From assembly GCF_014904695.1 (NCBI RefSeq), contig NZ_JACXXN010000001.1, positions 434,001 to 498,000 on the forward strand: a DNA stretch of 64,000 nt, in the 5' to 3' direction. Below are positions 35,731-61,991 of the stretch, in pieces. How positions within the stretch are numbered: the first letter of the stretch is position 1; every line of letters begins with the position of its first letter. Source of the DNA: Nostoc sp. MG11 (GTDB lineage: Bacteria > Cyanobacteriota > Cyanobacteriia > Cyanobacteriales > Nostocaceae). Position numbers and translations under genes: made by a program. The notes under the pieces are model-generated. The model saw only the letters and a list, made by a program, of their open reading frames with translations. It did no database searches and had not been told where the DNA came from.

Positions 35731-37344
35731 ATGATTGATAATGGTCTTTTTCCTAAAACAAATATTGCTTGTACACCCTTAAAGTGGAAAGGGTCAGATT
35801 ATCTACTCAAAACAGATGCAAAGCAAATTGAGTACTGTTTACACGATATAGACACACCATTCTATATATTGCACACTGGTTCTAGTATTGCGCTTGCAAC
35901 AGGTGGAGAAATTTCGCCTACAGGAGATTACAATTGCTTAGGTTTAATACCAGCTTTTAATCCTGAGTGTCTTGGTAGTGATGCCTTTAAAAAAGCTCAC
36001 GGCACAAATTATGCATACCAAGCAGGAGCTATGGCTAATGGTATTGCTTCCATTGATTTGGTAACTTCCCTAGGTAGAAAAGGATATTTAAGCTCGTTTG
36101 GCGCAGCAGGTTTACCTTTGAAGAGAGTAGAAGAAGCTATCACAACTCTCCAAGCTACTCTTCATGATGCTCCTTATGCTTTCAATCTTATTCACAGTCC
36201 TTCCGAACCCAACTTGGAAAGAGAATGTGTGGAATTGTATTTGAAGTACGGAGTAAAAACGGTAGAAGCGTCTGCTTTTATGAACTTAACGCCTAATATC
36301 GTTTATTATCGCGCTGCTGGACTTTCTCAGGGTAGTCATGGCGAGATTATAGCTAGAAATAACATTATCGCTAAAATTTCTCGCAGAGAAGTTGCAGAAG
36401 TCTTCATGAAGCCAGCACCAGATAAGATACTGCAAGATTTGGTATCAAAAGGTCTAATTACTACAGAACAAAGTGCTTTGGCTCAAAAAGTTCCTGTAGC
36501 TAGTGACATTACTGTAGAAGCCGATTCAGCAGGGCACACAGATAATAGACCACTTGTTTGTTTACTGCCTTTGATTCAAGAGATTAGAAACCGCATCCAA
36601 CAAGAGTACAAGTACGAAAAAAACATTAGAGTCGGAGCTGGAGGCGGAATAAGCACACCTCAAGCGGCTTTAGCTGCTTTTGCGATGGGAGCAGACTACA
36701 TCGTGACTGGTTCGGTGAATCAAGCGTGTAGAGAGTCTGGAGCATCGGAAATCGTCAAAGCCGCATTAGCACAAGCAGACATTGTAGATTTTGCTATGGC
36801 TCCTGCCGCAGATATGTTTGAAATGGGCGTAAAGGTACAAGTCCTCAAAAGAGGAACGCTTTTTGCTATGCGTGCCCAGAAACTCTATGAAATTTATCGA
36901 CAATATGATTCTATCGATGAAATTCCATTGATAGAAAGGAAAAAAATTGAAGAACAGTTGTTTCAAAAAAACTTAGATACGGTGTGGGATGAAACTGTTC
37001 AGTTTTTCCAGGAACGTGACCCTAGTCAAATTCAGAAAGCTTTAGAAAATCCCAAGAAAAAAATGGCCCTAATTTTTAGATGGTATTTAGGAAAATCATC
37101 TTTCTGGGCTAAAGCTGGAATGCAAGAACGAAAAATGGATTATCAAGTATGGTGCGGCCCAGCAATGGGAGCATTCAATGAGTGGGTAAAGGGTTCTTAC
37201 TTGGAGACACCAGAAAACCGTCATGTTATTGATGTTGCTTACCATTTGATGAAAGGAGCTGCTTATCTCTTCCGTATCCGTCAACTTAATAGTTTAGGGG
37301 TAAATTATGTTGATAGTTACGGAACTTATAAAGTAACACCATAA
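35731..37344 (+). CDS. pfaD: PfaD-like FMN enoyl reductase
   Basis: This protein of about 537 residues starts at ATG 35731; a TTG eight codons upstream is the alternative. It is of the PfaD/2-nitropropane-dioxygenase TIM-barrel type: FGAAGLPLKRVEEAITTLQ, VEADSAGHTDNRPL, VGAGGGISTPQAALAAFAMGADYIVTGSVNQ (FMN phosphate site), and the PfaD-specific tail (FRWYLGKSSFWAKAG, VWCGPAMGAFNEWVKGSYLE). In PUFA synthases PfaD is the trans-acting enoyl reductase that works with PfaA and PfaC. It opens the plus-strand cluster, so saturation of some double bonds is expected in the product. Confidence 0.93.
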   Translation: MIDNGLFPKTNIACTPLKWKGSDYLLKTDAKQIEYCLHDIDTPFYILHTGSSIALATGGEISPTGDYNCLGLIPAFNPECLGSDAFKKAHGTNYAYQAGAMANGIASIDLVTSLGRKGYLSSFGAAGLPLKRVEEAITTLQATLHDAPYAFNLIHSPSEPNLERECVELYLKYGVKTVEASAFMNLTPNIVYYRAAGLSQGSHGEIIARNNIIAKISRREVAEVFMKPAPDKILQDLVSKGLITTEQSALAQKVPVASDITVEADSAGHTDNRPLVCLLPLIQEIRNRIQQEYKYEKNIRVGAGGGISTPQAALAAFAMGADYIVTGSVNQACRESGASEIVKAALAQADIVDFAMAPAADMFEMGVKVQVLKRGTLFAMRAQKLYEIYRQYDSIDEIPLIERKKIEEQLFQKNLDTVWDETVQFFQERDPSQIQKALENPKKKMALIFRWYLGKSSFWAKAGMQERKMDYQVWCGPAMGAFNEWVKGSYLETPENRHVIDVAYHLMKGAAYLFRIRQLNSLGVNYVDSYGTYKVTP

Positions 37345-37502
37345 TCTTTCATCTTTCTCACTCTATGTAATTGGAGAAACGAAGCATTAATCCAATTATC
37401 AAAGCTGGGATTTTTCTCAAAAGTCCTTGGTTTGATGGGACTTTTCATGAAATGAATCATTTCTAATTATTCACTTAAATTTTAGCAGGTTAAGTAGAAG
37501 CA

Positions 37503-38828
37503 ATGCCAAAACTTAAATTTCCTCAATCTCAACAAGCAGCTAGTCAGGTGAAGAAATATTTACCTGGAGGAGTTCATTACAATTTTCGGTATGAGGGCAA
37601 AGATACCATCATACCTTTTAACAGAGGAAAAGGCTCAAGAGTATGGGATTTAGACAACAATGAACATCTTGATTTATTTTGTAAATTTGGTGCTTTGATT
37701 GTCGGACATCAAAATGAAGAATATAATGCAAAGTTAATTTACTACATCAATAAAGTACTTTCCGTAGACCAATGCGATTTGGAAGAACGCGTTTGTGAAC
37801 GGATTATTCATCATGTGCCTAGTGCTGAAATGGTACGTTTCGGGCTGAGTGGCACAGAAGCCGTGCAAAATGCGATTAGGCTTGCCAGAGCCTATACAGG
37901 TAAGCCCAAATTTGTCCGCTTCCAAGGGCATTATCACGGTAATGCAGACAATATTATGGGTGGTAAACCAACATCTTCTGAGTATCCTGTCCCTGTTGAA
38001 TATGAAGGAGATTACATGGGTACTGATGGACGTGCTCCTAACATTTTGGAGGAGCAGTCTTTCCTTATCCCCTGGAATAATATTGATGCTTTAGAAAAGC
38101 TATTGCTATATCGTGGTGATGAAATTGGCATTATTTTGATGGAGCCTATTTGTATCAATGGAGGCGGAATAGTACCTGCACCAGGATATTTAGAAAAGGT
38201 TAGAGAACTGTGCGATCAATATCACATAGCACTTATATTTGATGAAGTGATTACCGGTTTTAGAGTCGCTCTAGGCGGGGCACAATCCCTGTTAGGTGTA
38301 ACACCTGATATTACTGTTTTTGCCAAGGCAATGGGTGGAGGTGCTCTACCAATGTCTGCCATTGTCGGCAAGAAGGAAATCATGCAACTCTATACGGATA
38401 ATAAAGTTATCCACGCCGGCACATTCAATGGTTATCCACTTGGATTAGCTGCTGTACTAGCAACCATTGAGTTGTTGGAAAACGATCCATCATGTTATGA
38501 GAGAATGGCTAATTACCTGACACAAATAGGTCAGTCTCTTGTGGATGCTGCAAAAAATGTCGGAATACCAATGGTAGCTCAAGGTGTACCTGGTGTTTTA
38601 GTTTTCCATTCTGAGTCAGCACCACTTACTAAAGCTGAAGGTTACAACGAAACTACCAAGCTGCGGGATATCTTGATTACACGGCTTGCTAGAAATTATG
38701 GCATCCAATTTTCCCCGGTTTCTAGGTTTTTTAGTAATCTGCTCATGGATGACTCTGATGTAACTTTCTTTAAAGAAAGGATAGGTGAAGTCATGACTGA
38801 TATCGCCAGAATTAACGAATTTTTGTAG
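37503..38828 (+). CDS. Class III aminotransferase (glutamate-1-semialdehyde aminomutase-like)
   Basis: This 441-residue PLP enzyme has FGLSGTEAVQNAIRLARAYTG and FQGHYHGNAD for cofactor contacts, ILMEPICINGGG, LIFDEVITGFRVALGG, and the Schiff-base Lys 275 in TVFAKAMGGGALP. It is close to GSA aminomutases by motif wording, but its cluster position argues for a biosynthetic transaminase: an aldehyde or ketone made by the thioester reductase or the PKS would become an amine. The zeamine polyamine pathway uses an aminotransferase in the same way. It follows pfaD by about 160 bp. Confidence 0.9.
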   Translation: MPKLKFPQSQQAASQVKKYLPGGVHYNFRYEGKDTIIPFNRGKGSRVWDLDNNEHLDLFCKFGALIVGHQNEEYNAKLIYYINKVLSVDQCDLEERVCERIIHHVPSAEMVRFGLSGTEAVQNAIRLARAYTGKPKFVRFQGHYHGNADNIMGGKPTSSEYPVPVEYEGDYMGTDGRAPNILEEQSFLIPWNNIDALEKLLLYRGDEIGIILMEPICINGGGIVPAPGYLEKVRELCDQYHIALIFDEVITGFRVALGGAQSLLGVTPDITVFAKAMGGGALPMSAIVGKKEIMQLYTDNKVIHAGTFNGYPLGLAAVLATIELLENDPSCYERMANYLTQIGQSLVDAAKNVGIPMVAQGVPGVLVFHSESAPLTKAEGYNETTKLRDILITRLARNYGIQFSPVSRFFSNLLMDDSDVTFFKERIGEVMTDIARINEFL

Positions 38829-39144
38829 TGACAAGATTACGAATAATTGACAGGACTAAAGTGATTAATGCGCTTTAGGGCATAGGGTGCGGAGCGTAAT
38901 AGCACGCACCATTCCCCAACAATTTCATCAATTCAATCTTGTTTATTTGCCTCACGCAGAGAGAAGTTTAAGCAATACCTTTTGCCGCTGCGACAACTCT
39001 GGACAAGCAAGTGGCGACTTGAGCAAAGTGTACGTTGCGCAAGAAAGAACGTAAAATTAAGACTTTTGCAAGACGGGCAGCTGGTCATTGAGTAAAGGGG
39101 CTTCTCAAGTGTTCCAGACAATGCATATTTAGAACTTGAGAATA
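38829..39144. other. Intergenic region with short hairpin
   Basis: It contains GGTGCGGAGCGTAATAGCACGCACC-type inverted arms near 38886-38911, a dispersed repeat word. No gene was found. It separates the aminotransferase from the first SDR. Confidence 0.4.
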
Positions 39145-39927
39145 ATGCACAGTAACTATCAAATAAAAAGTCAAGATAGAATAGCAGTTGTCACTGGAGC
39201 AGCAGGCAGATTTGGACACCAGATTGTGCTGCAATTGTTGGCAGCAGGATTTTATGTAGCAGCAACAGATGCTTCTGAAGAGAAGCTGGCAAGCTTGCAG
39301 ACTTATCTAGGATCTTTTGAAAGACTTGGCTTGCTTTTTATGGATTCATGTAATTTGCAAAGCATTCAGAAAGCTGGTGAGCAGATTACTAATCTATTTG
39401 GAGAGCAGATTTTCGTTTTAGTTAACAATGCAGACATTTTGGAGCCTACTCCTATTTTGTCGTCAGAACATCATGATAAAGTCAGGGAAATTATCGATAC
39501 CAATCTGATAGGAACTTATAATTGCACCAGCTTTTTCTCCAGGTTCATGGTCAAAAGGAAAAGTGGACGCATTATTAACATTGCTTCTATTGCAGGTACT
39601 TGGGGAGCGTCTTTTGCCTCTGCGTATGCTGCTTCCAAAGCTGGGATGATTGCTGCTTCTAGATCTTGGGCCAGAGAACTAGGTTCTTATGGTGTGTGCG
39701 TAAATGCGATCGCGCCAGGTAGCTGCCATCCTAATACGCTAGAAAGTGCTGAGCAACAAAATTCTTCTGTTTCATTGAGAAAAAAGATATTGCTGGATTT
39801 TATTCCTGTTAGTCGTTTTGGCAATCCTGAAGATGTGGCTGAAGTAGTTCTATTTCTAGCTACATGTAAAACCAATTATCTCAACGGTGCAATACTCGAT
39901 TTAGACGGTGGGATAAATAAGGGATAA
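39145..39927 (+). CDS. Short-chain dehydrogenase/reductase, divergent copy
   Basis: This 260-residue protein starts at ATG 39145, matching the start of the sister gene; TTG 39136 is the longer alternative. The catalytic Ser and YxxxK are present (IASIAGTWGASFASAYAASKAG). The cofactor glycine motif reads TGAAGRFG instead of TGxxxGxG with Gly, and NNAG reads NNAD. It is a tandem duplicate of the next gene. The changes suggest altered cofactor binding or loss of activity. A role in keto reduction of the cluster product is inferred from position. Confidence 0.88.
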   Translation: MHSNYQIKSQDRIAVVTGAAGRFGHQIVLQLLAAGFYVAATDASEEKLASLQTYLGSFERLGLLFMDSCNLQSIQKAGEQITNLFGEQIFVLVNNADILEPTPILSSEHHDKVREIIDTNLIGTYNCTSFFSRFMVKRKSGRIINIASIAGTWGASFASAYAASKAGMIAASRSWARELGSYGVCVNAIAPGSCHPNTLESAEQQNSSVSLRKKILLDFIPVSRFGNPEDVAEVVLFLATCKTNYLNGAILDLDGGINKG

Positions 39928-40054
39928 ATAAGCTTATATAATCCGAATTTATTTGTGAAAGTTATAGTTTCAATTTGACGAACTACCAATACTTTCAATA
40001 AATAGATAGCCGGGGATTTATATAGGAATTAGCAATACATTTTAACTGAATAAA

Positions 40055-40861
40055 ATGAACAGTAACTATCAAATGATTAATCAAGATAGAATAGCAGTTG
40101 TCACCGGAGCAGCCGGGGGGTTTGGACAGCAAATTGTTCTTCAATTGTTGGCAGCAGGATTTTATGTTGCAGCAACAGATCTTTTTGAAGACAAGTTAGA
40201 ACGCTTGCAGAATTATGTAGGTTCTTCGGAAAAGCTTGGCTTATTTGGTATGGATATATGTGATTTGCAAAGCGTTCAAAAAGCTGGTGAGCAAATTATT
40301 AATTTATTTGGAGATAAGATTTTTGTTCTGGTTAATAATGCAGGTATTTTTGGGCGGACTCCAGTTTTGTTGACAGAATATCATGAGAAAGCACGGCAAA
40401 TAATCGATACCAATCTGATAGGAACTTACAATTGCACGAGCTTTTTCTCTAAGTTCATGGTTAAAAGGAAAAGTGGACGTGTGATTAATATTTCTTCTAT
40501 GGCGGGTACTTGGGGAGCGTCCTTTGCTTCTGCTTATTCTGCTTCTAAGGCTGGGATGATTGCTGCTTCTAAATCTTGGGCCAGAGAACTAGGTGCTTAT
40601 GGCGTGTGTGTGAATGCGATCGCGCCAGGTATCTTTCAAACCAATATGTTGGAACGGGCTGAGGAAGACGAACGTTCTGTTTCTATGAAAAAAAAGATAG
40701 TGCTGGATTATATTCCTGCTGGTCGTTTTGGCAATTCTGAAGATGTAGCTGAAGTCGTTCTATTTTTAGCAACATGTAAAACTGATTATCTCAACGGAGC
40801 AATATTCGAGTTAGATGGTGGTTTGAATATCGGCACTTTAGAAAGTATACATTTGAGTTAA
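40055..40861 (+). CDS. Short-chain dehydrogenase/reductase, canonical copy
   Basis: This 268-residue classical SDR has TGAAGGFG, NNAGIFG, catalytic Ser in ISSMAGTWG and YSASK, and the C-terminal FLATCKTDYLNGAIFELDGG. It is the FabG type, probably NAD(P)H-dependent. It is highly similar to the upstream gene along its full length (shared stretches such as FVLVNNA, GTYNCTSFFS, MVKRKSGR), and the duplication includes DNA-level identity. Its stop is 9 bp before the thioester-reductase start, so they are co-translated. Confidence 0.9.
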   Translation: MNSNYQMINQDRIAVVTGAAGGFGQQIVLQLLAAGFYVAATDLFEDKLERLQNYVGSSEKLGLFGMDICDLQSVQKAGEQIINLFGDKIFVLVNNAGIFGRTPVLLTEYHEKARQIIDTNLIGTYNCTSFFSKFMVKRKSGRVINISSMAGTWGASFASAYSASKAGMIAASKSWARELGAYGVCVNAIAPGIFQTNMLERAEEDERSVSMKKKIVLDYIPAGRFGNSEDVAEVVLFLATCKTDYLNGAIFELDGGLNIGTLESIHLS

Positions 40862-40870
40862 ACATTGATT

Positions 40871-42067
40871 ATGAATCAAGTAGATTGCAAAAATATTTTC
40901 ATCACAGGTGTAACAGGGGTAGTAGGGGGAAGACTCCTATATGAAATTCTTGCCTCTACACAAGCAAATGTATATTGCTTAGTCAGAGCAGATAATGTCC
41001 AAAAAGCTAAACAAAGAATTGCTGATATTCTTACAGTTTATGACCCACAACATAAAATATTTTCCCAGTTTGAATCAAGAACTAATGTTATAATTGGGGA
41101 TATTACCAATAAGCACTTTGGGTTAACAACTGAAGATTATTCTCACCTTGTTCAGAAGATTGATCAAGTTTTTCACGTAGCTGCAAACGTTAATATGGTA
41201 GCTAGTTTTGAAAAATTAGCTGAGGTCAATCTAAAAGGCACTTCAGAAGTTATTGAATTTTGCCTAGCTGGTCAAATTCCCATGCTCCATACATCTAGCT
41301 ATAGTGTTATAGGTAGTAAAACTATGGAGCCAGGTTTAGTATTCAAAGAAACCGACCTTGATATTGGGCAGACTTTTGATAACCAAAATTATGAACATAC
41401 TAAACTGCAAGCAGAGCAGCGAGTTCATGAGGCGGGAAATCGAGGACTCAAATGGGTAATTGTAAGACTTGGTGATATTCTTGGTGACAGTAAAACTGGT
41501 TGTTATCCGCTCACAGGTACAACTATTAAAGGCATATATTATGGTATTATTAAGGCTATTGTTGATACAGGGCTATTCTTTTTCTTAAAAGATTACTTTT
41601 ACATTACGCCAGTTGATTATGCGGCAGAATCTTCGCTTCACTTAGCGCTTAATCCAGAGGCTTACGGTAAAACTTTTCACATTATTAATCCCGACTGTAA
41701 ATCATTTTACGATTTTGTTAATCTGATCGTGGATGTTGGCTACAGAGTCAAAATACTTCCCTATGAAAAATACATATCTCTGTTTAGAGATAATTCAGTC
41801 TTCAAAGAAGGGAAGATTTACAGTTCTTCTTTTATTAATCTGTTGTTATTTTCGGATCTGATCACAGGTTCAGAATTATCTCCAGAATTGATAGATACAT
41901 CAGTAATCATTGATACATCAAATGCCGAAGAATTTCTTTCAAAGGCTAATATTTTCTGCCACAAGGTTGATATTGATTTACTCTCAACTTACTTGAAATA
42001 TTGTGTAGAAAAAGGCTTTATAGCCTCTCCGGCTAACCAGTCTCCCCTAGCGACTATCAAATATTAA
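40871..42067 (+). CDS. Free-standing thioester reductase (NAD-binding_4 type)
   Basis: This protein of about 398 residues starts at ATG 40871; TTG 40865 is the alternative. The Rossmann motif is FITGVTGVVGGRLL, the SDR-type catalytic Tyr174 and Lys178 lie in NYEHTKLQAEQRV, and VIVRLGDILGD and YFYITPVDYAAESS match the reductive release domains of PKS/NRPS lines. Such enzymes release an ACP-bound acyl chain as aldehyde or alcohol using NAD(P)H. With the aminotransferase, this gives a route acyl-ACP to aldehyde to terminal amine, as in zeamine biosynthesis. It has no carrier domain of its own. Confidence 0.88.
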   Translation: MNQVDCKNIFITGVTGVVGGRLLYEILASTQANVYCLVRADNVQKAKQRIADILTVYDPQHKIFSQFESRTNVIIGDITNKHFGLTTEDYSHLVQKIDQVFHVAANVNMVASFEKLAEVNLKGTSEVIEFCLAGQIPMLHTSSYSVIGSKTMEPGLVFKETDLDIGQTFDNQNYEHTKLQAEQRVHEAGNRGLKWVIVRLGDILGDSKTGCYPLTGTTIKGIYYGIIKAIVDTGLFFFLKDYFYITPVDYAAESSLHLALNPEAYGKTFHIINPDCKSFYDFVNLIVDVGYRVKILPYEKYISLFRDNSVFKEGKIYSSSFINLLLFSDLITGSELSPELIDTSVIIDTSNAEEFLSKANIFCHKVDIDLLSTYLKYCVEKGFIASPANQSPLATIKY

Positions 42068-42180
42068 CCTTCAGCAGATGGGTAGATATCGGGAAAGACC
42101 GTAGTATCTCATCAAGCACAAATTCAAAATAGTTGAATGACAGATTTCCAGCACTACTTATTAACTTCAAGAGAAAACCG

Positions 42181-43317
42181 ATGACAAACAATTTGAGTAC
42201 TTTGGATACAGCTACAACTAATACAACATCTCCTGTATGTTCTTACAATGAATGGGATCCGCTCGAAGAAGTCATCGTCGGCATTGTTGATGGGGCGATG
42301 GTTCCATCCTGGCATACTATCTATCGGGTGACGATACCTGGTGGTCAGGATAAAGAAGTGAACGAAATGAGCAAGCAGATAGAGCAATATCGGCTTCCTT
42401 ATCCAAAGAGGATGATTGAGGCTGCTACTAAGAACCTCAAAGAATTCGTCCATATTCTTGAATCTGAGGGAGTTGTAGTACGTCGTCCTGATGTTGTTAA
42501 CCATTCTGCATCCTTTAACACACCTGCTTGGAAGATACTTAATGGCTTCTGTTCTGCAAATCCTCGTGACGTATTTATAGTTATTGGGAATGAGATTATT
42601 GAGGCTCCTATGGCCGATAGGGGTCGTTATTTTGAAACTTGGGGCTATCGTTCTCTGCTCAAAGAGTACTTCAAGGGAGGAGCTAAGTGGACTGCGGTTC
42701 CTAGACCACAACTACTTGATGATCTCTATGACCAAGATTACAAATTCCCGGCTCCTGGCGAGAAGATGCGCTATGTAATCAACGAGTTTGAGCCTACTTT
42801 TGATGCAGCGGACTTTGTACGCTTTGGTCGGGATATTGTTGTACAGAAGAGTCATGTTACCAATAGCTTTGGTATCGCTTGGTTACAACGTCACATAGGT
42901 GATGATTATCGCATACATGTGGTAGATTCCCTTTGCCCACAAGCATTACACATCGATACCACCTTAGTTCCCCTCGCTCCAGGGAAGGTATTAGTGAATC
43001 CGATTAATTTAGATGTGAATAAACTTCCTGACTTCTTAAAATCTTGGGATATCTTGATTGCGCCTGAACCTAACAGAACTCCTAAGACACTTTATGGAAC
43101 AAATGTAATTAGCCATTGGGTGAACATGAACGTGCTGAGTATAGACGAAGAGAGAGTTGTCGTCGAAAAATCTCAGGAGTACATGATCAAAGCACTAAAA
43201 GACTGGGGATTTAAACCCATCGTATGTGAGTTTGAAGATTATTATCCATTCTTGGGTTCTTTCCACTGTTCAACACTTGATGTTCGTAGGCGCGGTGTAC
43301 TCAAGTCCTATGCTTGA
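42181..43317 (+). CDS. Arginine-type amidinotransferase 1
   Basis: This protein of about 378 residues starts at ATG 42181 behind AAGAG; TTG 42133 is a longer alternative. It matches glycine amidinotransferases (AGAT, CyrA, SxtG group): CSYNEWDPLEEVIVG at the N-terminus, catalytic Asp211 in FDAADFVRFGRD, His257 in LHIDTTLVPLAPGK and Cys363 in GSFHCSTLDVRRRG. These enzymes move the amidino group of arginine to an amine, forming a guanidine. Here the acceptor may be glycine (starter unit, as for CyrA) or an amine made by the aminotransferase. A hairpin follows the stop. Confidence 0.92.
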   Translation: MTNNLSTLDTATTNTTSPVCSYNEWDPLEEVIVGIVDGAMVPSWHTIYRVTIPGGQDKEVNEMSKQIEQYRLPYPKRMIEAATKNLKEFVHILESEGVVVRRPDVVNHSASFNTPAWKILNGFCSANPRDVFIVIGNEIIEAPMADRGRYFETWGYRSLLKEYFKGGAKWTAVPRPQLLDDLYDQDYKFPAPGEKMRYVINEFEPTFDAADFVRFGRDIVVQKSHVTNSFGIAWLQRHIGDDYRIHVVDSLCPQALHIDTTLVPLAPGKVLVNPINLDVNKLPDFLKSWDILIAPEPNRTPKTLYGTNVISHWVNMNVLSIDEERVVVEKSQEYMIKALKDWGFKPIVCEFEDYYPFLGSFHCSTLDVRRRGVLKSYA

Positions 43318-43339
43318 CCATCTCTCTGAGTGGTTGAGG

Positions 43340-43371: not shown

Positions 43372-43483
43372 CCGTCCCCTCAGGGGATAGAGATTAAATT
43401 GGGTGGGCGATACGACAAAGTGATATTTAACAAATAAATAAGCGATATCTCAACAATTCATTAAATAAAAATAAGGAATAGTA

Positions 43484-46432: not shown

Positions 46433-46470
46433 TGCTAAGCGTGAAAATCAAAAACAATCAGGAGACAATC

Positions 46471-47718
46471 ATGAGTGCAACAACACAAATAGCTAACATC
46501 GAAAAAAATAATCATTCTGGTAACGGCGATAATCGTAATCCTCAAAACCTTTCTGTAGCAGCATATCCTGTAGCCAATCAAACTGATATTCTGGCTCAGA
46601 TTCAAGAACAAAATTTCTTAAGTACAGTGCATCAACAATTCAATCAAAATCAAGGCAAGTATATTGATCTGCTGTCTAAAATTGTTGATTATCAAGCGTT
46701 AATGCTTGATAAATATCAAGATTCTGCTGCGCTACCCAAAGCAATGCATAATTTTGACCAAATACTGCAAATTTTGCAAAGAAATCAGCTTAATTACAAT
46801 ATCAATCATGAAGGTTATTTGCAGAATCAATTAAATTTGATTCGCACAAGTGAGTTACCAACAGATATGTCTAACAAGCTAGATGATGTTTCTGTGAGCA
46901 AACAACTCAATGCTGCAACTCCCGAAACTCAAGCTGTACTTCCTCTTTCTTCAAAACAAGAATTGCAAAGTTCTTTAGATTCATCTGCTAACCAATTAGC
47001 AAGTAATGTAGCTACACCGACAAAAACTGAGGAATTAGCTCAAGTTCCTTCTTCTAATGAGTTTAATTATATTCCTGTTAACAAAGAACCTAATGGTTCT
47101 GTACCTAAAACTAACGTTGTTGAAACCGTAGCTCCTACTCCTGGAATCGTTTCAACACCACCTAAACCCTCCTTCTTGCAGCAAGTTATTATCACCTCAC
47201 AACCAACCAGTGATGCTGTAGAGAGCATTTCTGCACCTAGTATTCCAACTGCTTCGCCAGAACCAACTAATAGTGCTGTAGAGAGCGTTTCTGCACCTAG
47301 TATTCCAACTGCTCCGCTAGAACCAACTAATAATGCTGTAGAGAGCGTCTCTGCACCAGTTCTTCCTCAAGAAGATGCTCCAGCTGCTTCAGTTGATTTG
47401 AGTGGATTCAGCAATCGATTACTGGAGGTAGTTAGCGATAAAACTGGATATCCAGTCGATATGCTGGATCTAAATATGGATTTAGAAGCAGATTTGGGGA
47501 TTGATTCAATCAAGCAGTTAGAAATTTTTGCTGCTATGCATGAGGAATTCCCAGATATGGATGTAGACCCAGAATTGTTCAGAGATTTGCGAACACTCGC
47601 TAAAATCGTTGATTATCTACAAGAACACTTGTCGAAACAAGCAACGCAATCTTCAAACAATGGCAAGGTTGATCAAGAACAAGGTATTGAAAGACAGGTT
47701 GTTAAAAAAAAATCCTGA
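46471..47718 (+). CDS. Acyl carrier protein with long Ala/Pro/Ser linker
   Basis: This protein of about 415 residues starts at ATG 46471, preceded by AGGAG at 7 bp; an earlier ATG at 46432 lacks such a site. The N-terminal 110 residues are helical and Gln/Asn-rich. The middle is low-complexity with a 20-residue repeat (AVESVSAPSIPTAPLEPTNN). The C-terminal ACP (about 310-395) has the phosphopantetheine Ser346 in LEADLGIDSIKQLEIFA, PfaA style. Only one ACP is present, whereas PUFA synthases usually have four to nine in tandem. The gene ends in an A9 run directly before the KR-DH frame (see findings). Confidence 0.9.
   Translation: MSATTQIANIEKNNHSGNGDNRNPQNLSVAAYPVANQTDILAQIQEQNFLSTVHQQFNQNQGKYIDLLSKIVDYQALMLDKYQDSAALPKAMHNFDQILQILQRNQLNYNINHEGYLQNQLNLIRTSELPTDMSNKLDDVSVSKQLNAATPETQAVLPLSSKQELQSSLDSSANQLASNVATPTKTEELAQVPSSNEFNYIPVNKEPNGSVPKTNVVETVAPTPGIVSTPPKPSFLQQVIITSQPTSDAVESISAPSIPTASPEPTNSAVESVSAPSIPTAPLEPTNNAVESVSAPVLPQEDAPAASVDLSGFSNRLLEVVSDKTGYPVDMLDLNMDLEADLGIDSIKQLEIFAAMHEEFPDMDVDPELFRDLRTLAKIVDYLQEHLSKQATQSSNNGKVDQEQGIERQVVKKKS
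47215..47350 (+). repeat. 60-bp tandem repeat in the ACP linker
   Basis: The units start at 47215 and 47275, with a partial third at 47335. Each encodes AVES(I/V)SAPSIPTAxxEPTNx. This is a flexible Ala/Pro linker next to the carrier domain. Confidence 0.85.
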
Positions 47719-50153: not shown

Positions 50154-50159
50154 GCTTAA

Positions 50160-54479: not shown

Positions 54480-54535
54480 GAACGTTGTCAGCAAAGATTA
54501 TCAAGCAAATTAGAAAAATTTTGGAGCAGATAGTT

Positions 54536-55702
54536 ATGGAACTTAGCAGCATACAAACAACAAATAGAGTGACGGAAAGTAAAACTTATGAAAAGGAAGA
54601 ATTCCAACATGCAAATACAGATAGTCTAGTTGTCAATTCATATAATGAATGGGATCCATTAGAAGAAATTGTTGTTGGTAGATTAGAGGGTGCTATTCAT
54701 CCACCTAAACATATATCTTTGTTAGGAGGAATCCCCAAGAAACTTTATAATGTTCTTTCCTTGGTCGGTGGAAGTAAAGTTTCCAAAAGATGGGGTATTG
54801 CGCCAGCGCAAAAAGAATTAGATGAGTTTATTCATATTCTCGAATCAGAAGGTGTGAAGGTCAGACGTCCTAGTTTTACTGACTATAGTCGGACTTTTTC
54901 TACTCCTAACTGGAAATCTAAAGGTAACTGCTCAGCTTGCCCACGAGACTGTTTTTTGGTCATTGGCAATGAAATTATTGAAGCACCTATGTCCTGGAGA
55001 TGTCGTTATTTTGAACGTCATGCTTATTACCCTTTATTTAAGGAATATTTTGAGCAAGGTGCAAAATGGACTTCTGCTCCTAGACCGCTACTACTAGATT
55101 CTCTATATGACAAAAACTATACTGTCCCTAAAGATGGAGAATCTATGCGCTATGTTATTAACGAATCTGAAGTTGTTTTTGACGCTGCCGATTTTGTACG
55201 TTGTGGCAGAGATATTTTCGTAACTAAAAGTAATGTAACTAACCAAGCTGGAATAAACTGGTTACAACGTCATTTGGGAAATGATTTTCGTGTTCATACT
55301 ATTGAGACACGCTCAAAACAACCTATGCATATTGACACTACATTTGTGCCTCTTGCACCAGGAAAAGTAATGATTAACCCAGAGTATATTGACGTTAAAA
55401 AACTGCCATCAATTTTAAAATCTTGGGACATACTAGTTGCACCCAAACCAGTCATTATCAAAGGAGGTTTATTCAGTGAAACTGCTGCTCTATGTAGTAT
55501 GTGGTTAAGCATGAATGTTTTGGTTCTAGATGAAGAACGGGTAATATGTGAAAAATCTCAAGAACCAACAATCCAAGCCTTAAAAGATTGGGGTTTTAAA
55601 CCAATACCTTGCAATTTTTTACACTTCAATCCCTTTGGTGGTGCATTTCATTGTGCAACTTTAGACATTCGACGTCGCGGCACATTACAATCCTACTTTT
55701 AG
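54536..55702 (+). CDS. Arginine-type amidinotransferase 2
   Basis: This protein of about 388 residues starts at ATG 54536 behind GGAG; TTG 54485 is a longer alternative. The catalytic set is complete: FDAADFVRCGRD (Asp), MHIDTTFVPLAPGK (His) and Cys373 in GAFHCATLDIRRRG. Compared with amidinotransferase 1, the substrate-side loops differ (SACPRDCFLVIG and ALCSMWLSMNVL against SANPRDVFIVIG and NVISHWVNMNVL), so the two probably use different acceptors or act at different steps. It follows the PfaC-like gene closely and precedes the discrete ACP. Confidence 0.92.
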   Translation: MELSSIQTTNRVTESKTYEKEEFQHANTDSLVVNSYNEWDPLEEIVVGRLEGAIHPPKHISLLGGIPKKLYNVLSLVGGSKVSKRWGIAPAQKELDEFIHILESEGVKVRRPSFTDYSRTFSTPNWKSKGNCSACPRDCFLVIGNEIIEAPMSWRCRYFERHAYYPLFKEYFEQGAKWTSAPRPLLLDSLYDKNYTVPKDGESMRYVINESEVVFDAADFVRCGRDIFVTKSNVTNQAGINWLQRHLGNDFRVHTIETRSKQPMHIDTTFVPLAPGKVMINPEYIDVKKLPSILKSWDILVAPKPVIIKGGLFSETAALCSMWLSMNVLVLDEERVICEKSQEPTIQALKDWGFKPIPCNFLHFNPFGGAFHCATLDIRRRGTLQSYF

Positions 55703-55751: not shown

Positions 55752-56282
55752 ATGACTGACTCTCTTTTACTAAAAATTAGTGAGCCTCTTACAGATAAGC
55801 AGAATAATAAAAATCACTGCCTTGCAACAACATCATCTGAAGTTTGGGACTTTCGCATTGATTGTTATAGATATCAGATTTGTAAGCAATGGCTGCAAGC
55901 CCGCAACGGTTTTCCTTTAAATAAGGAAGATATTCAACGCTACCAACGTATTTTAATGATCCTGAAAGAATTAGCTAAGCTCATGGAGGAAATTAAAATA
56001 ATAACTCAGTCTAACCAGTTGAAGAAGGTAAAAGTTTTTGAAAAAGTCCAAAATATTGTTGTAGAAAAGTTGGGAATTGATCCAGAAAAAGTCACTCCCA
56101 TTGCAAATTTTACCAGAGATTTGGGAGCGGATTCTTTAGATATATTAGAACTAATAGTTGCTCTTGAAGAAACATTCAATATTGAAATCTCTAATCAAGC
56201 AACTACAAAATTTGAGACAGTACAACACACTATAGATTATATTAGCCAACAACTTGAGATTGACTTAGAGTTAGCTAATTGA
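55752..56282 (+). CDS. Discrete acyl carrier protein with N-terminal extension
   Basis: This 176-residue protein has residues about 95-170 forming a type II ACP: VFEKVQNIVVEKLGIDPEKV and Ser in FTRDLGADSLDILELIVALEE. The 90-residue N-terminal extension (VWDFRIDCYRYQICKQWLQARNGF) is helical and not recognised. It may be the partner of the thioester reductase, the aminotransferase or the amidinotransferases, or a second carrier for the iterative synthase. A start 49 bp after amidinotransferase 2 suggests one operon. Confidence 0.9.
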   Translation: MTDSLLLKISEPLTDKQNNKNHCLATTSSEVWDFRIDCYRYQICKQWLQARNGFPLNKEDIQRYQRILMILKELAKLMEEIKIITQSNQLKKVKVFEKVQNIVVEKLGIDPEKVTPIANFTRDLGADSLDILELIVALEETFNIEISNQATTKFETVQHTIDYISQQLEIDLELAN

Positions 56283-56328: not shown

Positions 56329-57099
56329 ATGACTACTTTAACTAGCAATGTTGTTATGCGACCCTATGTATCTTATTGGGGTATGCACAAGTCTGCCCGG
56401 ATTTTAGATTTAATTACATCACTTTATTTCCCGCTATATGAGCTTTCATATAAAGATTTTTTTGCTTATTATCCAGTTCTAGGCTTTGTGGAAGCTTTAG
56501 TATATGAAGTTGATGAGGCAGTAGAAGCCCTTCAGGAGAAAGAATTATTTTCTGAAGTCAAAAACTCCTGGAATCAAAAGCATAAAATCATCATTGATGT
56601 ACTTAAAACTAGAAACTTGTATCATTCGTTAATTGAACAAGAATTAGAAAATTTAGGAAAATACTTTGAATTAGAAAGTCAGCTATTATCTCAGAAAGAT
56701 GTAACTTATGAAGATATTATCAAAGCTACTGAGTTACGCACTTCTGATATACGTGCTCTGCACGGAATTTTAGTACAAGTAGCTAAAAAGACTTATGATC
56801 AAAAAACCTTTGATGTTATGTGGCCTTTAGAGGTACTTATTGATATTTACGATGATATTACTGATTATAAAGATGATGTGGATAAAAACCACTACAACAC
56901 CTACCGCATGTTTGTTAAGTTCTATGGAAAGAAAGCACCTGACTATCTAAAAAAAGAGTTGGCTCGATACGAGTCTCTATTTGTCAAGAGACTAGATAGT
57001 TTACCAAGGAAAGAGCAAAAAAGATTTATAAAACTTGTATCTGAATTGGAAAAAGATAATTCTGATAAGACTATTCCTCAACCAATTTTGGAATGGTAA
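56329..57099 (+). CDS. All-helical protein resembling class I isoprenoid synthases
   Basis: This 256-residue, wholly helical protein has one Asp-rich stretch, LEVLIDIYDDITDYKDDVDK, followed by NTYRMFVKFYG. The wording resembles the second Asp-rich motif region (DDxxDxxxD) of polyprenyl synthases and short proteins labelled class 1 isoprenoid biosynthesis enzymes. A first DDxxD motif is not obvious (DEAVEALQEKE lies earlier). It might prenylate or bind an isoprenoid, or have another role. AGAGG precedes the ATG. Its presence in a PUFA-like cluster is unexpected. Confidence 0.55.
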   Translation: MTTLTSNVVMRPYVSYWGMHKSARILDLITSLYFPLYELSYKDFFAYYPVLGFVEALVYEVDEAVEALQEKELFSEVKNSWNQKHKIIIDVLKTRNLYHSLIEQELENLGKYFELESQLLSQKDVTYEDIIKATELRTSDIRALHGILVQVAKKTYDQKTFDVMWPLEVLIDIYDDITDYKDDVDKNHYNTYRMFVKFYGKKAPDYLKKELARYESLFVKRLDSLPRKEQKRFIKLVSELEKDNSDKTIPQPILEW

Positions 57100-57268: not shown

Positions 57269-58636
57269 ATGATGATTGATCAAGTTTGGGAAAATTCAAC
57301 TATGGAAGTCATTGGATATGGTATTGATAATGGCAATATAGATCCACGCGAATTAGTTGAGTATTTTTTAACTAAAATTGATCAAGAAAAAAAGAAGGAA
57401 AAAATATTTATAGAGGTTTTTGAACAACAAGCTAAAAGTCAAGCAGATGCCGCATATAAAAGGGCGACTACTAACACACGACTTTCGCTTTATGATGGGA
57501 TTCCCCTCGCATGGAAAGACAATTTTGATATTCAGGGTAAACCGACAAGTGCAGGGTTGAAGGTTCTATTGGATAGAGTTGCTCAAAAGGATGCAGTAGC
57601 TTACAAAACATCTGTTGATGCTGGCTTTATTTGTCTTGGTAAAACTAATATGACGGAATTGGCTTTTTCGGGTTTAGGAATTAATCCTACATTCGGGACA
57701 CCAATAAATCCTTTTAGTTCTGAGCAAGCAAGAGTTCCCGGTGGTTCTTCATCAGGTTCAGCTGTTGCTGTGGCAAAAGGTTTATGTTGCGCTGGTATAG
57801 GAACTGACACGGGTGGCTCAATCCGAACACCCGCTGCTTGGAATAATTTAGTTGGTTTAAAAACAACTGCGGGGCTAATTTCAACAGAAGGTGTTATTCC
57901 TCTAAGTCAAACATTAGATACAGTTGGTTTTATTACTCATTCCGTTGAAGATGCAGCTATCCTTTACCATGTAATTGCTCAGACTGATAAGATTAATTTT
58001 GCGGATGTTGGATGTAAAGGTCTAAGTTTATTAGTATGTACAAATATTGTCTGGGACGATGCTGATTCGGAAGTTGCGGCTATTTTGGATGCTTCTATAG
58101 ACAATATTGCAGCACAAGGGGCAATTATTAAAAGGAGCAATATTCCAGAGTTTGAACAAGCACTAAAACTTATTAATACAAAAGGTAATATTGTTAACTA
58201 CGAGGCAAGTAAAAATTGGCTCGAATTTTTAGAAGCTCATCCTAACTCTATTTCACAAGATATACTGGATAGATTTTATGTAGGAGCAAAAATTCAGGAG
58301 AGCGATGCTTATGAAGTGTATCAGGGTTTGAAAGACCTTAAAAAGCAGTATTTGCAGAGAACGAATGATTATACTGCTGTTATTATGCCAACTGTGGCAA
58401 ATGTACCACCCATTATTAATGATTTAGAACAAAATAGTCAAAAGTACGCCGCAGAGAATCTCTTGTCATTACGAAACACGCGTTTAGCAAACATGCTAGG
58501 ACTGTGTGCAATTTCCCTACCTGTGGGATTTACTTCTTCAGGGTTGCCAGTCGGACTGATGTTGTTGGCAGCACCCTTCTCTGAAGTACTGCTTTTGCGC
58601 CTAGCTTTAGCGATAGAAAAGATATTTTCAAGATAA
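57269..58636 (+). CDS. Amidase signature family hydrolase
   Basis: This 455-residue enzyme has an intact Ser-cisSer-Lys triad: Lys in PLAWKDNFDIQG, cis-Ser in GGSSSGSAVAVAKG and nucleophile Ser in GIGTDTGGSIRTPAAW. The family includes GatA, fatty-acid amide hydrolases and bacterial amidases. It is unlikely to be GatA, as there is no GatB/C partner. In guanidino-polyketide pathways of actinomycetes amidases open guanidino-amide units, so a role in trimming an amide of the product or starter is plausible here (inference). Confidence 0.88.
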   Translation: MMIDQVWENSTMEVIGYGIDNGNIDPRELVEYFLTKIDQEKKKEKIFIEVFEQQAKSQADAAYKRATTNTRLSLYDGIPLAWKDNFDIQGKPTSAGLKVLLDRVAQKDAVAYKTSVDAGFICLGKTNMTELAFSGLGINPTFGTPINPFSSEQARVPGGSSSGSAVAVAKGLCCAGIGTDTGGSIRTPAAWNNLVGLKTTAGLISTEGVIPLSQTLDTVGFITHSVEDAAILYHVIAQTDKINFADVGCKGLSLLVCTNIVWDDADSEVAAILDASIDNIAAQGAIIKRSNIPEFEQALKLINTKGNIVNYEASKNWLEFLEAHPNSISQDILDRFYVGAKIQESDAYEVYQGLKDLKKQYLQRTNDYTAVIMPTVANVPPIINDLEQNSQKYAAENLLSLRNTRLANMLGLCAISLPVGFTSSGLPVGLMLLAAPFSEVLLLRLALAIEKIFSR

Positions 58637-58843: not shown

Positions 58844-60451
58844 ATGGTAAGTCGCAAACAGATTGTCTGGTTAAAGTTTTTAGTCATCATTTTATTGTTA
58901 TTGGGTGTGTTTTTTCGCTTCGTTAATCTTGGTCGAAAAGTTTACTGGTTTGATGAGACTTTTACTTCATTACGAATTTCAGGCTACACACAACAAGAAG
59001 CAGCCAAGCATGTCTGTGATGGACGCGAAATTGGTGTTGAAGATTTACAGAAATATCAGCTTTCTGCTGTTGGAAGAACGTCAATAGATACTATTAAATC
59101 TTTAGCAGTGGAAGTCCCTCAGCATTCACCTCTGTATTTCGTGATTGCGAGGTTTTGGGTGCAATGGTTTGGCAATTCAGTCGCAGTAACGAGAAGTTTG
59201 TCTGCCTTAATTAGCTTGTTAGCGTTCCCCTGTATTTATTGGCTATGTCTGGAATTATTTAAATCATCTTTGATGGGATGGGTAGCAATTGCACTGCTAG
59301 CTGTATTGCCACTTCATGTATTGTACGCACAAGAAGCACGGCAGTATAGTTTGTGGACTGTAACGATTTTACTATCAAGTGCAACACTACTACGAGCAAT
59401 GCGACTGAAAACAAAGTTGAGCTGGGGAATGTACGCAGCTACCGTAGCATTGGGGCTATATACGTTTCTGTTTTCTGGGTTTGTAGCAATTGCTCATGGT
59501 ATCTATGTAGTTGCAACTGAAAGCTTCCGATTAAGCAAGACTGTTACTGCCTATTTACTTGCGTCTCTAATAGGGCTTTTAGCTTTTATGCCTTGGTTGT
59601 TGATTGTTATTATTCAGTTAGCCCAAATTAATGAAACAACAAGCTGGACATCTGACACTAAGATATCTCTTTTAGAATTAATTGCAGTTTGGACTCTTAA
59701 TATTAGCTCTCTTTTTGTTGATTTAAACTACGATTTTGTGCAGACTTTTAATAATACAACATTGGAATATATACAACTATGTTTGATTCCTTTTATCTTA
59801 GTTTTAGTAGGATATTCAATTTATTTTCTCTGTCGCAAAGCTTCAAAGCGGATTTGGTTGTTTGTTTTAACGTTGATTGTAGTTCCAGTGCTACCTCTAG
59901 TAATACCCGATCTAATTTGGGGAGGAATTCGATCAACAAACCCTCGGTATATAATCCCCACTTATTTGGGTATTCAGTTAGCTGTTAGTTACCTCCTGGC
60001 CACTCAAATTACCTCAACATTTGTTAATATTTGGCAACAGAAGCTTTGGCAACTGATCATGGTTGCATTGCTCTCTGTTGGAATCTTATCCTGTGCAATT
60101 AGTTCTCAAGCAGATACTTGGTGGAATAAGTCCCTTAACATTTATACTCCTCAAGTGGTTCAGATCATTAACAAAGCTACTCACCCACTTTTGATTACTT
60201 CCTGTCAACTAAATGGTATAGGCGATGAACTATCTCTGAGCCATCTGCTTGCTCCAAAGGTAAGGCTTCAGTTGGTGAACGAGCTAAATATGCCCCAGAT
60301 TTCTAATAATTTTAGTGATGTATTTTTATACCTTCCCAACCACAATTTTTCTATGGAATTAATTAGGGAGAAGTTGGAAAAAGGGCAAAAATATAAGCTA
60401 GAGGATATTTATCCCAAGAAGCTTCAGCTTTGGAAACTAGTAAAAATTTAG
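58844..60451 (+). CDS. GT39-like membrane glycosyltransferase
   Basis: This 535-residue protein has about ten membrane helices. The N-terminal signature RFVNLGRKVYWFDETFTSLR (Asp-Glu in the first loop) and VPQHSPLYFVIARFWVQWFG are typical of ArnT/PMT-type GT-C enzymes that use polyprenyl-phosphate sugars on the outer face of the inner membrane. LYAQEARQYSLWT supports the same class. It lies between the amidase and a cytoplasmic glycosyltransferase and may glycosylate the exported product or an unrelated acceptor. Confidence 0.82.
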   Translation: MVSRKQIVWLKFLVIILLLLGVFFRFVNLGRKVYWFDETFTSLRISGYTQQEAAKHVCDGREIGVEDLQKYQLSAVGRTSIDTIKSLAVEVPQHSPLYFVIARFWVQWFGNSVAVTRSLSALISLLAFPCIYWLCLELFKSSLMGWVAIALLAVLPLHVLYAQEARQYSLWTVTILLSSATLLRAMRLKTKLSWGMYAATVALGLYTFLFSGFVAIAHGIYVVATESFRLSKTVTAYLLASLIGLLAFMPWLLIVIIQLAQINETTSWTSDTKISLLELIAVWTLNISSLFVDLNYDFVQTFNNTTLEYIQLCLIPFILVLVGYSIYFLCRKASKRIWLFVLTLIVVPVLPLVIPDLIWGGIRSTNPRYIIPTYLGIQLAVSYLLATQITSTFVNIWQQKLWQLIMVALLSVGILSCAISSQADTWWNKSLNIYTPQVVQIINKATHPLLITSCQLNGIGDELSLSHLLAPKVRLQLVNELNMPQISNNFSDVFLYLPNHNFSMELIREKLEKGQKYKLEDIYPKKLQLWKLVKI

Positions 60452-60674
60452 ACTAGAGTTTTATCGATAGTAAAAGCTCAAAACCAATCTATATAAACTT
60501 TCCACAAGTTATTTGATTAACCTTGAAAAAATAGTATTCAGATAAAAAAGAAGCGATAGTACAAGCAAAATTAGCATCGTAGCTCTCAAATGTTGCTTGA
60601 AAATTACTTAGTATCAGCACCTCTAAATTTTTATCACCTTAGAAACAATTAGCGAACTGTCAGGAGCATATAGG

Positions 60675-61991
60675 ATGGAGCGTATAGTGCAAGAAAACAA
60701 GTCTATATTGTTTGCTTTATATCCTGAATGGGGTGGGTTCATGCCGATGATGGCATTGGCGAAGGCTTTTTCTAGACGCGGATGGGACGTGCTGTTTGTT
60801 CTCCCACCAGAAGGAGATGAAAAACTCTCTCTTCATAGCCAGCAGGTGGAACATTACAAAAAGTATATAGAAGAACAAGGGTTTCAATATAAGCTTCTGA
60901 GGCCATTTCCCAAGCGGTTCGGAGGGATGCTTGCACAGACTCGCCGTGAAACTGAGATTTTGGCGAATATACTTGAGGACACTATCAAGATTATCAAAGA
61001 GTGCAATGTAGGTCTGGTGCTCATTGATTCAATTATTTCATTCGTTGCTATTGCGGCCATAGAATCTGGGGTTCCTTATGTTGGGGTTGGTACGGCATTT
61101 GCTGGATTTATTAATTCAAAAATTCCCCCTTCAGACTCATCGTTTATTCCCGATCGCAGCTCACGTTCATCATTGATAATTCTGTTGGACTGGATGTTGT
61201 TGGCTTTTGTGGTGAGATTGTTTATAACGTTTCGCCCCAAACACTTCCTCAGATATTACTTTGGGATCGGAGCATTCGTCAGGGATCGTGCGCGTGCGAC
61301 GGGATTAACACTAGGTTTTTCAGATTACGGCCCGATGTTCAAGTCTCCCCTACACTATTTGATGCCGAAAAGGCTAGATTTTGAATCCCGTCCTGGAGCT
61401 GAGTATCTTGGGTGTGTTGTGGATCTCTCACGTGCAGATGAAGATTTCAAGGTGGATAAGCTCAGTGGCACTAAACCGCTGATCTACTGCTCGTTGGGCA
61501 CACGCAGTTGGGAATATCCTGCCAGCAAGCGCTTCTTCCGGGTTGCCCTTAAGACGTTCCAGCAACGACAAGACTATGAGTTCGTACTCAATATCGGAAA
61601 CACCTGCGAAGTGGAAGATCTTGGGGAGATTCCAGATAATGTGTATGCCTGCAAGTGGGTTCCGCAAATGGCGGTTCTGCAAAAAAGTGCAATGATGATT
61701 ACTAATGGAGGGATGAATACGATCAAGGAGTGCATCTGTCTTGGTGTCCCGATGATAGTTTTGCCCGCCAGAAACGATCAACCCGGAAACGCAGCCAGGG
61801 TAGTTTATCATGGGTTGGGTGTACGAGGAGATCTTAGGTGGATCGAGCATCAGGAATTGTCCAGACTCATCAATAAGATTTCCAGCGACAACAGCTATAT
61901 GAAGAACATTGAGCAAATGCAAAAAGAATTCATGCGTCTGGATAAGTTTGAGAATGGAATTGATTTACTTGAAAGTTACATTGCAGCATAA
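60675..61991 (+). CDS. Family 1 (UGT/MGT-type) glycosyltransferase, cluster end
   Basis: This 438-residue GT-B enzyme has an N-terminal LFALYPEWGGFMPMMALAKAFSRRGWDVLFVLP acceptor domain. The C-terminal donor domain has LIYCSLGTRSWEYP, KWVPQMAVLQKSAMMITNGG and GVPMIVLPARNDQPGNAARV. AGGAG precedes the ATG. It is distinct from the glycosyltransferase at 15845-17140. By eye the second half uses more G/C-ending codons (CGCAGC, ACGCAGT, GCCAGG) than its neighbours, hinting at separate origin. It is probably a tailoring enzyme of the PUFA-like product. Confidence 0.87.
   Translation: MERIVQENKSILFALYPEWGGFMPMMALAKAFSRRGWDVLFVLPPEGDEKLSLHSQQVEHYKKYIEEQGFQYKLLRPFPKRFGGMLAQTRRETEILANILEDTIKIIKECNVGLVLIDSIISFVAIAAIESGVPYVGVGTAFAGFINSKIPPSDSSFIPDRSSRSSLIILLDWMLLAFVVRLFITFRPKHFLRYYFGIGAFVRDRARATGLTLGFSDYGPMFKSPLHYLMPKRLDFESRPGAEYLGCVVDLSRADEDFKVDKLSGTKPLIYCSLGTRSWEYPASKRFFRVALKTFQQRQDYEFVLNIGNTCEVEDLGEIPDNVYACKWVPQMAVLQKSAMMITNGGMNTIKECICLGVPMIVLPARNDQPGNAARVVYHGLGVRGDLRWIEHQELSRLINKISSDNSYMKNIEQMQKEFMRLDKFENGIDLLESYIAA

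Follow-up and report, generated by a model that had tools for sequence, protein, structure and literature searches.

Can a polyunsaturated fatty acid (PUFA)-type synthase in a cyanobacterium supply the chain of a lipid that carries amines and guanidines? This question is raised by a 64,000-nucleotide stretch of the 8.4-Mb genome of Nostoc sp. MG11 (contig NZ_JACXXN010000001.1, positions 434,001 to 498,000, forward strand), hereafter the window, to whose first letter all coordinates refer. Between 35707 and 61991, all on the + strand, it encodes a PfaD-type enoyl reductase, a class III pyridoxal phosphate (PLP) aminotransferase (AMT), two short-chain dehydrogenases/reductases (SDR 1 and SDR 2), a thioester reductase (TR), an amidinotransferase (AmT1), a ketosynthase-acyltransferase (KS-AT), a protein with one acyl carrier protein (ACP) domain, a ketoreductase-dehydratase (KR-DH), a ketosynthase-chain-length factor-FabA protein (KS-CLF-FabA), a second amidinotransferase (AmT2), a second ACP (ACP2), a 256-aa protein, an amidase, a PMT_2 protein and a glycosyltransferase, in this order. 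The reading favoured here, with moderate confidence, is a stand-alone polyamine-lipid pathway, in which a PUFA-type chain would be aminated internally and at its end, guanidinylated and exported. The block from PfaD to AmT2 (35707-55702, + strand) consists of the following genes.

35707..37344, + strand: PfaD-type enoyl reductase, 545 aa (alternative ATG start at 35731); TIGR02814 at 670 bits against a cut-off of 449; left end of the conserved block.
37503..38828, + strand: AMT, class III PLP enzyme resembling glutamate-1-semialdehyde (GSA) aminomutase and GntE, 441 aa; PF00202; NF041362 at 301 bits, under its cut-off of 525; Lys in FAKAMGGG.
39136..39927, + strand: FabG-type SDR 1, 263 aa; PF00106, with FabG models below their cut-offs.
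40055..40861, + strand: FabG-type SDR 2, 268 aa; PF00106, with FabG models below their cut-offs.
40865..42067, + strand: free TR, 400 aa; PF07993 above cut-off, TIGR01746 at 203 bits, just under its cut-off of 213; motifs GVTGVVGG and YEHTK.
42133..43317, + strand: AmT1, protein start probably at 42181; in the PDB, SxtG (6u1r) at 1.4e-163, HsvA at 2.2e-98 and arginine:glycine amidinotransferase (AGAT, 1jdw) at 5.2e-86; Asp/His/Cys motifs; own clade.
43484..46432, + strand: KS-AT, front half of PfaA, 982 aa; PfaA-type TIGR02813 at 1119 bits against a cut-off of 1010; KS Cys and His, AT motif GHSFGE.
46432..47718, + strand: protein with one ACP, 428 aa; a single PF00550 stretch with the motif LGIDSI.
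47739..50153, + strand: KR-DH, rear half of PfaA with a dehydratase of polyketide synthase (PKS) type, 804 aa; PF08659, PF14765 and PF21089.
50160..54479, + strand: KS-CLF-FabA (PfaC), 1439 aa; two KS, one FabA above cut-off and an AHN motif upstream; no AT matched.
54485..55702, + strand: AmT2, start probably at 54536; in the PDB, SxtG at 1.5e-134, AGAT at 6e-95 and HsvA at 7.4e-95; Asp/His/Cys motifs.

Every gene named in the preliminary description of this locus was found intact at its place. The PfaA-, PfaC- and PfaD-type core proposed there is borne out by the TIGR02813 and TIGR02814 matches above cut-off and by 6riw ("ORF10"), the best solved relative of KS-CLF-FabA at 633 bits. In the second KS of the latter protein, Gln replaces Cys (VSAQESS), as a chain-length factor would show. 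No PfaB was found among the cluster proteins scanned, nor any adenylation, condensation, acyl-ligase or modular PKS domain. Within the same range, the two SDRs, ACP2, the amidase, the 256-aa protein and the PMT_2 protein come in addition to the genes originally listed. The linker of the ACP protein contains a 60-bp tandem repeat at 47201-47357.

The enzymes that set this locus apart from an ordinary lipid synthase are the two amidinotransferases. Neither matches any Pfam or NCBIfam model above cut-off; in a phmmer search of the PDB, SxtG was nearest to both, followed by HsvA or AGAT. AmT1 and AmT2 alike carry the motifs FDAADF, HIDTT and FHCxTLD, whose Asp, His and Cys we take to be the catalytic residues of AGAT-like amidinotransferases, and the initial view of both as complete AGAT-type enzymes is upheld by these matches and motifs. 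In the active-site stretch, AmT1 reads ALHIDTTL, the same as SxtG, and AmT2 reads PMHIDTTF, near the PMHIDATF of AGAT; these differences are compatible with different acceptors, though no proof of them. A genome search of the host found no amidinotransferase besides these two. For the amidinotransferase tree, 123 proteins were taken, matches of 280 aa or less having been left out beforehand, and 110 rows remained after removal of near-identical sequences; the method was a quick one and several branches are long. Herein, AmT1 falls in a clade of 8 rows (support 99) that joins a homologue fused to a nonribosomal peptide synthetase (NRPS) protein, and AmT2 in a clade of 8 rows (support 97) that takes in Nostoc sp. 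FACHB-892 and has Desulfobacteraceae-type copies as its sister. An origin of the pair by tandem duplication was rejected on account of these separate supported clades.

The surroundings of the AmT1 relatives may hint at the substrate. The NRPS-fused homologue (genome G109, L157:8055-11462) is 77% identical to AmT1 and C-terminally fused to an adenylation-peptidyl carrier protein (PCP) protein. The sister of the AmT1 clade consists of copies in genomes G146, G175, G180 and G094. In G146, the gene adjoins a 1142-aa fusion of a fatty acyl-AMP ligase, an ACP and a BioF/serine palmitoyltransferase-like oxoamine synthase, and in G175 a 1162-aa protein with a similar start (the domain scan was made for G146 only). 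Because these copies adjoin such a fusion or a protein like it, the sister-clade enzymes are suggested to act on lipid amines. Both genomes hold a small cluster (L212:9949-14534 in G146 and L213:2798-7425 in G175) of the AmT1-like gene, the fusion (in G175 the protein of similar start), an SDR and an exporter resembling the major facilitator superfamily, the last two labelled by eye; these clusters may make guanidino long-chain amino-ketones. Elsewhere (L051, L053 and genomes G208-G210), AGAT-like genes occur in tandem pairs about 1.2 kb apart, the pair at L051 lying near YdjC-like and B12-radical-SAM-like proteins, again labelled by eye.

Conservation of the block was assessed among 217 genomes of the family. 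AmT1 and AmT2 lie on one contig, about 12-13 kb apart, in seven of these: the five members of the window's genus, Komarekiella among them (the own genome and G001-G004, with K. delphini-convector as G001 and K. atlantica as G004), Calothrix sp. FI2-JRJ7 (G034) and an uncultured Scytonema known from a metagenome-assembled genome (G210). The whole order from PfaD to AmT2 is kept in all six relatives, save that Calothrix and Scytonema have a single SDR and that the PfaD, AMT and KS-AT frames are shortened in the Scytonema assembly. Since seven of the 217 genomes, the own one included, preserve this order, the gene set is no chance neighbourhood. Cluster proteins are 81-99% identical within the genus and 43-84% outside it, the ACP being lowest. 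For 16 genes, each compared with as many as six relatives, omega ranges from 0.01 to 0.43, and for both amidinotransferases from 0.01 to 0.13; the ratios outside the genus are rough, as dS is near or above 1 there. The block is under purifying selection. Gene content to the right of AmT2 varies, and synteny to the left of PfaD differs between relatives.

Furthermore, an AMT orthologue of at least 75% identity occurs in 9 of the 217 genomes, 8 of which also carry an AmT2 of the window's clade. Wider searches added no carriers: the AMT at phylum level (E 1e-120) returned one of 386 genomes, the own; KS-CLF-FabA at order level, at the very strict threshold of 1e-300, returned three of 388, all already among the carriers found. 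Plasmid searches with KS-CLF-FabA, AmT2 and AMT, in which three regions were opened, gave no similar cluster among the matches listed.

The best evidence that AMT, TR and AmT2 work together is their joint occurrence on a different synthase in Nostoc sp. FACHB-892 (G164/L046), where their orthologues (80, 63 and 77% identical, respectively) lie in one cluster. The synthase of that cluster is 49% (KS-AT) and 40% (KS-CLF) identical to that of the window and does not group with it. Trees were drawn from 20 sources, with 15 rows for KS-AT and 13 for KS-CLF, each over more than 75% of the query. In these, the FACHB-892 KS-AT groups with C128, one of two further pfa-like islands of the MG11 genome (94/93, a node not starred), and with C128 and the other island, C183 (99/97); its KS-CLF groups with C128 (100/100), C183 being outside the KS-CLF tree. 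By gene sizes and content, both islands appear to be of the heterocyst-glycolipid type. One of them has a TR, and neither AMT nor amidinotransferase was matched in their 20-kb stretches. The window's cluster forms its own clade apart from these islands in both trees (100/100 each). The same three enzymes are thus found on two different synthases, since in FACHB-892 they sit with a C128-like one, and this offers a case in which the exchange of head-group modules between lipid synthases can be tested directly. The FACHB-892 cluster (L046, L153) additionally holds a carbamoyltransferase, a Rieske oxygenase, an ABC exporter, HlyD and FtsX proteins and a PapA-like protein (acyltransferase).

How these enzymes might cooperate is suggested by published polyamine modules. 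In the zeamine model, the beta-keto group is transaminated in selected cycles, the TR frees an aldehyde and an aminotransferase makes the end amine, and enzymes of the GSA-aminotransferase-like type, MycA and Zmn12, are discussed there in relation to beta-keto thioesters (PMC3547906). In the fabclavine module as described, beta-keto groups are transaminated or reduced, followed by reductive release and end transamination (PMC9113149). By analogy, KS-AT, the ACP protein, KR-DH, KS-CLF-FabA and PfaD would carry out iterative long-chain synthesis from malonyl units on one ACP, with a FabG-type SDR performing a ketoreduction. In chosen cycles, AMT would convert the beta-keto group to an amine in place of full reduction; the TR would then free the chain as an aldehyde, from which the same AMT could make a terminal amine. 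AmT1 and AmT2 would transfer amidino groups from arginine onto chain amines, probably at two different positions, and the ABC protein would export the product. The most likely product would accordingly be an exported long-chain amino or polyamino lipid that bears one guanidine or two and may be glycosylated. The gene set, its motifs, synteny and selection, and the joint occurrence of AMT, TR and AmT2 with another synthase are observed; from these we infer the order of the reactions, the number of amines, the number and place of the guanidines, glycosylation, export and the biological role.

Other readings of the same genes have to be weighed against this polyamine-lipid pathway. A chain that is fully reduced, freed as an aldehyde by the TR and aminated by AMT only at its end would yield a plain long-chain guanidino-alkane; TR and AMT are indeed both free-standing, and terminal transamination is part of the zeamine model as published (PMC3547906). 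We nevertheless consider a single-amine product unlikely, given that AMT is of the GSA-aminomutase type linked through MycA and Zmn12 with beta-keto thioesters, and that the presence of two amidinotransferases from separate clades points to more than a single acceptor. The guanidine might instead enter first, as a guanidino acid made by an amidinotransferase that primes the synthase. A guanidino starter has been proposed for cylindrospermopsin, the nearest PDB relative of both amidinotransferases is SxtG, a natural-product enzyme, and the G109 homologue forms a fusion with an NRPS adenylation-PCP protein. On the other side, the scanned cluster proteins have no adenylation or acyl-ligase domain, and two free amidinotransferases exceed the need of one starter; this route appears rather improbable.

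That the amidinotransferases are general AGATs, set beside a lipid synthase by accident, has a very small chance of being correct. Their relatives at 55-63% identity are widespread, with at least 577 confirmed stretches when GTDB contigs were scanned with the amidinotransferase alignment; of the best 80 of these, KS-AT was matched in 4 and PfaD in 1 more, leaving 75 with neither in their flanks (10 kb at most, some short). Both enzymes are nevertheless embedded in the block kept in seven genomes of three genera, and AmT2 accompanies AMT and TR on another synthase. The preliminary link of both enzymes to the pathway, as opposed to unrelated general enzymes, is thereby strengthened, as they are the only two found in the genome, lie inside the block and belong to separate clades. 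Equally hard to credit is that the locus encodes a variant synthase of heterocyst or akinete glycolipids, a view for which it might speak that KS-AT shares 49-50% identity with its counterparts in the host's two other pfa-like islands. Products of the hgl type are glycosylated long-chain alcohols. The host, however, carries these two islands as loci of their own; KS-AT and KS-CLF of the cluster stand in a clade apart, and the cluster has AMT, two amidinotransferases and a KS-CLF-FabA without AT.

Several observations weigh against the polyamine-lipid pathway or parts of it. The correspondence with zeamine and fabclavine is one of gene content, set by described architecture; PfaD and AMT, fused in Zmn12, are separate here. 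The nearest KS-AT proteins among the rows used are those of the host's own islands, and a common origin with the zeamine module is putative. No phosphopantetheinyl transferase family was matched among the cluster proteins scanned. FACHB-892 has a single amidinotransferase at E <=1e-60, and two guanidines are therefore not universal. At the same threshold, an amidinotransferase occurs in 34 of the 217 family genomes, most of which lack the PfaD-to-AmT2 block, and the widespread relatives noted above occur outside lipid clusters. In the ninth AMT carrier (G084), the 36 kb covered contain none of the other cluster genes. Finally, glycosyltransferase and ACP2 went undetected in the Scytonema stretch, and exporter, glycosyltransferase and PMT_2 in that of G002, whose contig stops 4.3 kb past the amidase.

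These absences concern the right-hand part of the locus, whose genes are as follows.

55752..56282, + strand: ACP2, second ACP; PF00550 with the motif LGADSL.
56329..57099, + strand: 256-aa protein, accessory; no family match; at this place only in the window's genus (5/5).
57269..58636, + strand: amidase, accessory; PF01425; in 5/5 genus members.
58844..60451, + strand: PMT_2 membrane glycosyltransferase-like protein, accessory; PF13231; in 4/5 genus members.
60675..61991, + strand: MGT/UDPGT-type glycosyltransferase; PF00201, TIGR01426 below cut-off; in 4/5 genus members.
62394..64000, - strand: ABC exporter running beyond the window end, 603 aa; PF00005 and PF00664; in 4/5 genus members.

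The 256-aa protein, the amidase, the PMT_2 protein and the glycosyltransferase look accessory. The ABC exporter is convergent to the cluster, just past position 61991, where the preliminary description ended it. It is probably part of the cluster, as judged by comparison with the Calothrix and Scytonema loci: Calothrix has, after AmT2, a different glycosyltransferase (20% identity), a co-directional ABC exporter, ACP2 and an amine-oxidase-like flavoprotein, in this order, and Scytonema has the start of a co-directional ABC gene interrupted by an apparent transposase (by eye). The exporter thus occurs in four of five genus members, in Calothrix and, broken, in Scytonema, and ACP2 in Calothrix and all five members of the genus. 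The glycosylation envisaged from the outset remains a possible step and has become weaker, with a glycosyltransferase in four genus genomes and a different one in Calothrix set against none detected in the G002 and Scytonema stretches.

The 256-aa protein has no match in Pfam, NCBIfam, the PDB or PHROGs, and its family is present in 24 of the 217 family genomes. In one of these surroundings (genome G125, L211), a member lies among DXS/IspG/IspH-like proteins, a CrtE-like synthase and a Pyr4-type terpene cyclase, all but the last labelled by eye; it may represent a family of isoprenoid-related enzymes that no Pfam model covers. To the left of the block, the window encodes at 21390-33066 (- strand) a HopA1-domain protein, an APH-type kinase, an aldo/keto reductase-like protein, a peptidyl-prolyl isomerase (PPIase), an HlyD protein and a C39-peptidase ABC exporter, presumably a cluster for a ribosomally synthesized and post-translationally modified peptide of the class V lanthipeptide or thioamitide kind; another PPIase lies at 33802-34536.

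Taken together, a small group of cyanobacteria probably makes a new kind of positively charged lipid. A bolder proposal, offered tentatively and at somewhat below even chances, is a new natural-product class: a PUFA-synthase polyamine bearing two guanidines from two separately recruited amidinotransferases and exported as a cationic membrane-active agent, with a mobile head-group cassette (AMT, TR and amidinotransferase) on at least two lipid synthases, in FACHB-892 accompanied by a carbamoyltransferase and a Rieske oxygenase. If the polyamine-lipid reading is right, the polyamine logic of zeamine and fabclavine would extend into cyanobacteria and gain a further reaction, the guanidinylation of amines on a polyketide chain, for which no example appeared among the papers listed in the literature searches. 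Synthetic long-chain oligoguanidines serve as fungicides and disinfectants; a biological route to them would be attractive both for antibiotic chemistry and for the enzymes it would supply.

The preliminary statement that no cyanobacterial pathway with this gene set was known has met no counter-example: no characterised cluster with the same gene order appeared among the matches listed from the literature, a search that did not extend to curated cluster collections. The openly licensed PMC literature yielded no paper combining amidinotransferase with PfaD, or amidinotransferase with PUFA synthase and cyanobacteria, and, by title and start of abstract among the matches listed, none on such a cluster. 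The word "amidinotransferase" is absent from the main text of Shulse and Allen (2011; PMC3098273), of the 2025 hgl survey (PMC11804610) and of the 2026 hybrid-lipid survey (PMC13291983), and "guanidin" from the main text of the last. A search aimed at zeamine and fabclavine sequences in 369 genomes of the class of a Methylomonas genome found PfaD in 17, none in an open frame near 1010 aa; in 9 of these 17, a 20-kb neighbourhood gave no match to AMT, TR or an amidinotransferase at 1e-8, and E. coli MurG had no close relative in 53 genomes of that class.

Among known systems, synthases of eicosapentaenoic and docosahexaenoic acid have several tandem ACPs (4-6 in PMC13291983) and a PfaB acyltransferase, whereas the synthase here has one ACP and no PfaB; an assignment to this type was rejected on these grounds. 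The cyanobacterial PKS-NRPS-PUFA hybrids of clade II likewise employ pfa-like genes for specialised lipids, but, as characterised in that survey, they have an adjacent PKS-NRPS and no CLF (PMC13291983); the present cluster has a CLF and, among the proteins scanned, no PKS-NRPS. With the hgl and hgl-like islands, the locus shares a cyanobacterial Pfa-related synthase (PMC11804610), in a clade separate from the host's own islands, whose hgl label is itself our assignment. AmT1 and AmT2 belong to the same sequence family as SxtG (6u1r) and AGAT (1jdw), with the same Asp/His/Cys motifs, in the context of a lipid synthase. Closer is FclC-H of Xenorhabdus bovienii, reported to make a deoxy-polyamine without a complete NRPS/PKS arm and to have a PKS-type DH in FclC (PMC9113149); like it, the present cluster appears to be polyamine-only. 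No amidinotransferase is named in the parts of that account drawn on here, and its figure legend gives a nitrilase where the present cluster has an amidase.

Closest of all is the zeamine module of Serratia plymuthica, which comprises Zmn10 (2259 aa, a one-ACP PfaA), Zmn11 (1439 aa, two KS and one FabA), Zmn12 (1010 aa, PfaD fused to a GSA-aminotransferase-like enzyme), Zmn13 (a 255-aa reductase) and Zmn14 (a 412-aa TR), and is described without PfaB (PMC3547906). The corresponding sizes in the window are 982+428+804 against 2259, 1439 against 1439, 545+441 against 1010, 263 or 268 against 255, and 400 against 412 aa. The early likening of the free TR and PLP aminotransferase to zeamine is thus extended to the whole module, each part of which has a like-sized counterpart, bar gene fusions and the second SDR. 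Unlike the described zeamine system, the cluster has its PfaA split in three, two amidinotransferases and no NRPS/PKS arm, and lies in a cyanobacterium. It shares with zeamine the one-ACP PfaA, the two-KS-FabA protein, PfaD with a GSA-aminotransferase-like AMT, a reductase, a TR, the lack of PfaB and ABC export genes. As compared through published descriptions, the gene set matches the Zmn10-14/FclC-G polyamine module in domain content and size.

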